From the NCBI RefSeq assembly GCF_000701365.1, contig NZ_JNIK01000003.1:1-64000 (forward strand): a stretch of 64,000 bases of DNA, written 5' to 3'. Origin of the DNA: Blastococcus sp. URHD0036 (GTDB lineage Bacteria > Actinomycetota > Actinomycetes > Mycobacteriales > Geodermatophilaceae). Each line of letters begins with the position of its first letter. Position 1 is the first letter of the stretch. The translations under genes and the position numbers were made by a program. The notes under the pieces were generated by a model. It was not told where the DNA came from, searched no databases, and saw only the letters and a program-made list of their open reading frames with translations. Below are positions 38,585-39,001 of the stretch, one piece after another.

Positions 38585-39001
38585 GTGCAGCCCGACGAGG
38601 ACGACGAGCCCACCATCGTCAAGAGCGACGACGAGTGGCAGGCGCAGCTGAGCACCCGCGAGTTCGCGGTGTTGCGCCGCGGCGGGACCGAACGCCCCTG
38701 GTCCGGCGAGTACGTCGACACCAAGGTCGGCGGCGTCTACCACTGCCGCGGCTGCGGTCAGGAGGTCTTCCGCTCGCGCACCCGCTTCGAGTCGACCTCG
38801 GGCTGGGCCGACTTCTACGCGCCGACCAGCGCCGACAACGTGCAGCTGCGGACCGACCTGACCGGCAAGCACCCGCGCATCGCCGTCCGCTGCTCGGCCT
38901 GCCACGGGCACCTCGGGCACGTCTTCAACGACGCGCCGCAGACCCCCACGGGCGACCGTTACAGCATCAACAGCGCCGCCGTCCGCTTCCTCCCGGGCTG
39001 A
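38585..39001 (+). CDS. MsrB-like protein with catalytic Cys replaced by Ser
   Basis: A 138-residue MsrB paralogue, collinear with the upstream copy. Zinc-binding CRGC and CSAC are intact and [12 protein letters not shown] is kept, but residue 127 is Ser ([10 protein letters not shown]) where active MsrB has Cys, and HCGWPSFY has become TSGWADFY. Standard sulfoxide reduction through a cysteine sulfenic acid cannot proceed, so it is probably a non-catalytic methionine-sulfoxide binder or zinc protein, or has another chemistry. The reading frame is fully open with normal codon use, so it is not simply decaying. The start is GTG at 38585. Confidence 0.85.
   Translation: [138 protein letters not shown]

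Follow-up and report, generated by a model that had tools for sequence, protein, structure and literature searches.

Described MsrB enzymes and related proteins

According to the motif definitions in PMC8945050, the RYC(I/V)N motif of an MsrB-type methionine sulfoxide reductase contains the catalytic Cys (or Sec), and the GCGWP motif of the 2-Cys type contains the resolving Cys. The active-site description in PMC2713860 places Thr192, His266, His269 and Asn286 around the catalytic Cys284, and in the Xanthomonas MsrB structure 3HCI the methionine sulfoxide (MetO) site comprises W73, R97, H111 and F113 (PMC4287342). An engineered Neisseria MsrB, in which the nucleophile was exchanged for Ser (C117S), was solved with Ac-Met-R-SO-NHMe (3hch; PMC6210582). 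With regard to other uses of the fold or family, the CULT domain, a beta-tent fold, binds its ligand without a catalytic residue (PMC4287342), and mS81, an MsrB-family protein of the Tetrahymena mitoribosome (6z1p), forms part of another assembly (PMC7326499). Among the papers listed by our literature searches, which covered few subscription journals, none described a naturally occurring MsrB devoid of the catalytic Cys.

An MsrB paralogue without redox cysteines

The window, i.e., the whole stretch of 64,000 nucleotides of Blastococcus sp. URHD0036 analyzed here, harbors two SelR/MsrB genes arranged head to tail, with the following features:

38104..38526, forward strand: msrB1, an ordinary zinc-type 2-Cys MsrB, with the catalytic Cys in GDRYCINS and the resolving Cys in HCGWPSF
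38585..39001, forward strand: MsrB paralogue in which Ser127 and Ser72 stand in place of the redox Cys, with the zinc-type Cys54, Cys57, Cys103 and Cys106 retained
38798..38800, forward strand: codon TCG for Ser72, which replaces the resolving Cys (located by counting from the GTG start)
38963..38965, forward strand: codon AGC for Ser127, which replaces the nucleophile Cys

In line with the preliminary description of this locus, both proteins align end to end (56% identity, 60% in the core), the paralogue is encoded by an open frame of 138 aa with a GTG start, and Ser occupies the position of the nucleophile. The comparison was made at a 10-residue stretch, which reads FDSHCGWPSF in msrB1, and at a second stretch of 28 residues, each with its counterpart in the paralogue. 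That description had presented Cys127Ser as the change; the exchange is real, but the account was incomplete, since the resolving Cys72 has also been lost. The four cysteines left in the paralogue make up two zinc-type CXXC pairs, and these are the zinc Cys residues that had been reported as retained. No other SelR matches were present in the 5.18-Mb genome.

Compared with zinc-type 2-Cys MsrBs (SelR, PF01641/TIGR00357), the paralogue is thus a full-length homologue that keeps the zinc-type Cys and the MetO-pocket residues but lacks both the catalytic and the resolving Cys, as do its counterparts in four further species described below. Specifically, the catalytic Cys or Sec is replaced by Ser in all five of these proteins (hereafter, Ser copies) and the resolving Cys by Ser in four and by Thr in one, whereas the two CXXC motifs, for which zinc binding is predicted, are present in 5/5. 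A Ser or Thr at the resolving position recalls the 1-Cys MsrBs (2k8d has Thr), although 2k8d retains the RYC nucleophile that the paralogue lacks. The non-catalytic beta-tent domains (CULT/cereblon, Yippee and Mis18) belong to the same fold class, but the paralogue is an MsrB by sequence, and no match to the CULT, Yippee or Mis18 families was reported at E <= 0.001. The likeness to mS81 is that of a shared family, mS81 being a 310-residue eukaryotic chain. By descent, the paralogue is a member of the SelR family, but it lacks the catalytic hallmarks that define the enzyme, for which reason annotation as a reductase should be avoided.

With regard to automated annotation, both proteins exceed the cut-offs for SelR in Pfam and for MsrB in NCBIfam, the paralogue reaching 133.7 bits against PF01641 (cut-off 24.9) and 141.2 bits against TIGR00357 (cut-off 113.05). 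Since the latter is an equivalog_domain model for MsrB and its cut-off is passed by a protein without redox Cys, a pipeline would call the paralogue a reductase, which constitutes an annotation trap.

The genome also carries two msrA genes (L144 on C6 and L145 on C13). The idea that the second of them might be a further dead copy was rejected, as both keep the GCFWG active-site motif.

Ser copies in relatives and their rarity

In a sample of 112 Geodermatophilaceae genomes, including the window's own, some MsrB match was present in 108 and none in 4, while a match with at least 80% identity to the paralogue was found in 3 (the window's genome, G109 and G042). A contig scan of genomes confirmed 355 relatives, of which the best 80 loci were kept; the Ser form was present in four of these 80:

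L036: Blastococcus sp. CPCC 205250
L037: Trujillonella endophytica DSM 45413
L038: Blastococcus endophyticus CPCC 205247
L039: Geodermatophilus aquaeductus DSM 46834

Together with the window's genome, this amounts to five species, each separately sequenced and four of them close relatives. In all of them, a Cys copy lies directly upstream of the Ser copy, the Ser copy reads GDRYSINS with an AGC codon, and its frame is open. The Ser form beside an active msrB, which the preliminary description had proposed to look for, thus occurs in tandem in four further species. The same agreement rejects a sequencing error at 38963-38965 and speaks against Cys at this position in the matching copies of relatives, the two observations that had been named as refuting. 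By contrast to the Ser copies, both Cys are retained in the family set's remaining 81 MsrB rows, msrB1 of the window among them, and in 12/12 outgroup rows, which represent further families of the same order.

Beyond the family, a narrow Ser pattern in its AGY form was found in 1/394 class genomes, which was the window's own, and its TCN form in 0/296 phylum genomes. As the narrow patterns miss the common PTD-type motif, wider patterns were also run, and here the AGY form matched 1/296 class genomes, again the own one, and the TCN form 0/296 class genomes. The Cys form of the pattern, employed as a positive control, was detected in 83/118 genomes, which means that 30% of genomes either escape the pattern or do not contain the motif. 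Within this sensitivity, Ser-type MsrBs are rare in the class, the pattern searches having covered the phylum. A viral collection yielded 2 partial relatives. As far as sampled, the paralogue is confined to a few Geodermatophilaceae.

The Ser copy is absent from Blastococcus sp. TF02A-26 (L084), where the msrB1 and hemQ matches lie 55 bp apart. This strain is a near relative according to hemQ and the regulator gene (95%), and its msrB1 is nested within the group in the trees; hence, its lack of a Ser copy is likely a loss, and the paralogue is dispensable there. Of the 80 loci, 76 had msrB1-hemQ gaps that were examined for remnants, 4 of them Ser-bearing. In the other 72 gaps, remnants of a lost Ser copy were not found, the best matches being E = 0.07 for protein and 15-20 nt with E = 0.025 for DNA.

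Two minor observations concern these loci. In L042, L052 and L087, the msrB1-hemQ gap, which elsewhere is the site of the Ser copy, spans ~560-580 bp and contains long open frames (in L042, 192 aa on the reverse strand), none of which matched a Ser MsrB. Furthermore, L074, titled 'UNVERIFIED_ORG: Bacillus sp. AZ43', shows a Geodermatophilaceae-type msrB1 locus and clusters with Blastococcus rows, and its label therefore looks wrong.

Phylogeny and origin of the Ser clade

Two trees were built, one with 86 rows (81 Cys, 5 Ser) and one with 37 rows including 12 outgroup sequences. In both, the five Ser copies were set apart from all other rows by a branch supported at 100/100. This branch is long, its halves about the drawing root measuring 0.85 and 0.64 (86-row tree) and 0.81 and 0.20 (37-row tree) changes per column.

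An origin by duplication within or near the Geodermatophilaceae is favored on three grounds: a loop of 11 residues common to Ser and Cys copies (which is also present in some outgroups), the identity of the paralogue to family members (56-63%, compared with at most 57% among the listed matches from other families of the order), and the tandem position. The support of 100/100 concerns the Ser clade as such and does not extend to its place of attachment among the Cys copies. Alternatively, the gene may have come from outside the family, or may have been transferred into G. aquaeductus. The Cys copy of that species is closest to that of a Geodermatophilus (94%), which argues against a recent transfer of the pair as a unit; the Ser copy alone may have been transferred. 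NG86 dS values were 0.31-0.43 among the Ser copies of the four Trujillonella-group species and 0.33-0.44 between these and G. aquaeductus, the matching values for the Cys copies being 0.17-0.29 and 0.26-0.36. Since the silent divergence of Ser copies within the group is as large as that to G. aquaeductus, it provides no date.

Selection on the Ser copies and conservation of upstream elements

Purifying selection, the other check put forward in the preliminary description, was evident in the Ser copies after loss of the redox Cys. Codon maximum-likelihood estimates of omega (MG+F3X4) were 0.071 for the five Ser copies (125 codons) and, in the same species, 0.082 for the five Cys copies (127 codons); the GY model gave 0.036 and 0.041, respectively. 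Fixing omega at 1 under MG lowered lnL from -943.2 to -1027.4 in the Ser set and from -843.5 to -906.0 in the Cys set. Pairwise NG86 values ranged from 0.095 to 0.390 among Ser copies and from 0.096 to 0.374 among Cys copies. In 400 neutral simulations with GC-rich mutation, NG86 omega averaged 1.2 and fell no lower than 0.41; the top observed value of 0.390 (window versus G. aquaeductus) comes close to this lowest draw. After a divergent stem, the Ser protein has thus been under roughly the same constraint as the active enzyme.

This constraint was preceded by considerable change. Among 76 near-invariant family columns, 49 are retained in all five Ser copies and 27 are not, and some of the changed positions lie beside the pocket (P75A, S108G, M96F/H). 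At 17 positions, the Ser clade has a fixed residue that occurs in none of the 81 Cys rows.

Conservation also extends upstream of both genes, where the following elements were detected:

38092..38097, forward strand: TACCGT, a -10-like hexamer that precedes the msrB1 ATG by 6 nt
38573..38578, forward strand: TACGGT, a -10-like hexamer that precedes the paralogue GTG by 6 nt

TACGGT is kept in 5/5 species within a divergent spacer, at 6 nt from the GTG in the window and at 7 nt in the four relatives; TACCGT precedes msrB1 in 4/5 species and is absent from G. aquaeductus. On the forward strand of the window, TANNNT occurs at that distance for 5/1528 ATG/GTG triplets, both genes included. Across the whole window, however, the TANNNT-6 nt-NTG arrangement was not enriched (8 sites compared with 4.6 expected, 11/100 shuffles reaching 8), so that the case for a promoter rests on the 5/5 conservation, which suggests separate, leaderless transcription of the paralogue.

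These results bear on whether the paralogue is a decaying, functionless duplicate, that is, a pseudogene in the making. Such decay would agree with the loss of both redox Cys, with the long branch that separates Ser from Cys copies and with the absence of a match of at least 80% from 109/112 family genomes (4 of which lack any MsrB match). It is nevertheless at odds with the open frame in 5/5 species, an omega no higher than in the active copy, the far worse fit at omega = 1, the neutral simulation and the conserved TACGGT, and we regard it as very improbable. We consider it highly probable that the paralogue is instead a selected, retained pseudoenzyme, because it forms one clade in five species, evolves with an omega similar to that of the active copy, has a conserved promoter-like element and keeps intact zinc-type Cys and pocket residues. 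This supports the retained, non-catalytic role that the preliminary description had envisaged, while the sensing or chaperoning that it had mentioned would be compatible with the pocket data given below.

Pocket residues and candidate functions

With a constant offset of 157, the residues listed in PMC2713860 correspond to T35, H109, H112 and N129 of the paralogue, and those of 3HCI (PMC4287342), mapped from the alignment range, would correspond to W74, R98, H112 and F114. Out of these seven pocket residues, six (T35, W74, R98, H109, H112 and N129) are strictly conserved in 5/5 Ser copies, and position 114 is F or Y, with Tyr in two of them. Measured against the background of 49/76 retained columns, 6/7 is no excess (P = 0.21), nor do the zinc Cys alone depart from it (P = 0.17); pocket and zinc Cys together (10/11) gave a marginal P = 0.044. 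The engineered C117S MsrB (3hch) shares with the paralogue the Cys-to-Ser exchange at the nucleophile and the kept pocket residues; the paralogue differs in being natural and in also lacking the resolving Cys, at 36% identity in the Foldseek alignment. By this analogy, it would resemble a natural substrate-trap MsrB mutant without thiol chemistry. Two AlphaFold models were too poor for geometry (pLDDT 63.7 and 60.1), and a Foldseek search of the PDB with the first of them gave TM ~0.5 and rmsd ~15 A for most MsrB rows, which merely repeats the sequence homology.

If the paralogue is a selected pseudoenzyme, we judge R-MetO as its ligand to be about evenly balanced. Taken as a whole, our tentative reading, held at slightly under an even chance, is that of a retained MsrB pseudoenzyme acting by binding peptidyl Met-R-sulfoxide. 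In this scheme, an msrB was duplicated, and the duplicate, deprived of both thiols that reduction requires, underwent strong divergence before purifying selection preserved it. Its product would fold as an MsrB, judging from homology, and, having no thiol beyond the zinc-type Cys, would be unable to reduce MetO; it may bind peptidyl Met-R-sulfoxide in the kept pocket and, as a reader, holder or chaperone, mark or shield oxidized proteins alongside the active MsrB1. A more speculative proposal, which we regard as a fair way short of probable, is that the paralogue is a dedicated natural domain for reading Met-R-sulfoxide in proteins, which would recognize the modification without removing it and be the counterpart to the MsrB eraser next door.

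Specificity may have shifted, given the changes beside the pocket and the 27/76 columns not kept, and a selected pseudoenzyme with another ligand, a peptide or nucleic acid, would reuse the zinc beta-tent scaffold in the manner of Yippee, Mis18, CULT or RIG-I. The 17 positions private to the Ser clade are consistent with such reuse, as are the diverse ligands described for the fold in PMC4287342 and the Foldseek ranking from the poor model, in which YPEL5, Mis18 and cereblon structures appear, although below the MsrBs. MetO-contact residues that are kept or conservatively changed would be unneeded for a new ligand, yet their retention shows P = 0.21; on balance, we find another ligand unlikely.

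The dead copy might also regulate its neighbor, pairing with MsrB1 or competing with it for substrates or thioredoxin and thereby tuning repair. Its position directly after msrB1 in 5/5 species and the presence of just these two SelR genes in the genome would fit this role, but the tandem arrangement may merely reflect the mode of origin, and MsrBs are generally monomeric; we therefore consider regulation of this kind improbable. As for new chemistry, with Ser127 as a hydrolase-like nucleophile or reduction by another route, Ser AGC is fixed in 5/5 Ser copies and His109, His112 and Asp116 are kept in 5/5. Nevertheless, we know of no Ser-nucleophile reaction in the MsrB fold, and, since a single base substitution turns the TGC found in the Cys copies into AGC, the common Ser codon needs no special selection; we give new chemistry very little credence.

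Binding of Met-R-sulfoxide, our preferred reading, would matter in a wider context. Reversible methionine oxidation has been proposed as a signalling mark and, to our knowledge, no non-catalytic reader of it is established; a natural, selected MsrB lacking redox thiols is a direct reader candidate. The hosts are stress-tolerant soil and rock actinobacteria, in which protein oxidation matters. Furthermore, the paralogue might be employed, without prior engineering, as an affinity reagent for methionine-R-sulfoxide.

Genomic neighborhood

Two further features flank the gene pair:

35287-38060: genes for a histidine kinase and a LuxR-type regulator, directly upstream of msrB1
39002..39046, forward strand: strong hairpin between the paralogue and the convergent hemQ

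In the window, as well as in the 4 Ser-bearing loci, the genes upstream include both the histidine kinase and the regulator. A regulator gene within 500 bp upstream of msrB1 was present in the window, in 4/4 Ser-bearing loci and also in 28/76 loci without a Ser copy, and the two-component genes were consequently counted as context rather than as special partners. As Ser carriers are mostly close relatives, this co-occurrence is proof neither way; a functional link of the kinase and regulator with the Ser copy is possible. Downstream, hemQ was found in 78 of the best 80 loci, with or without a Ser copy. The hairpin at 39002-39046 is near-perfect (-39 kcal/mol, z -8.2), and its palindrome, which occurs at 14 places in the genome, this one included (up to 3 mismatches), represents either a dispersed repeat or a terminator family.
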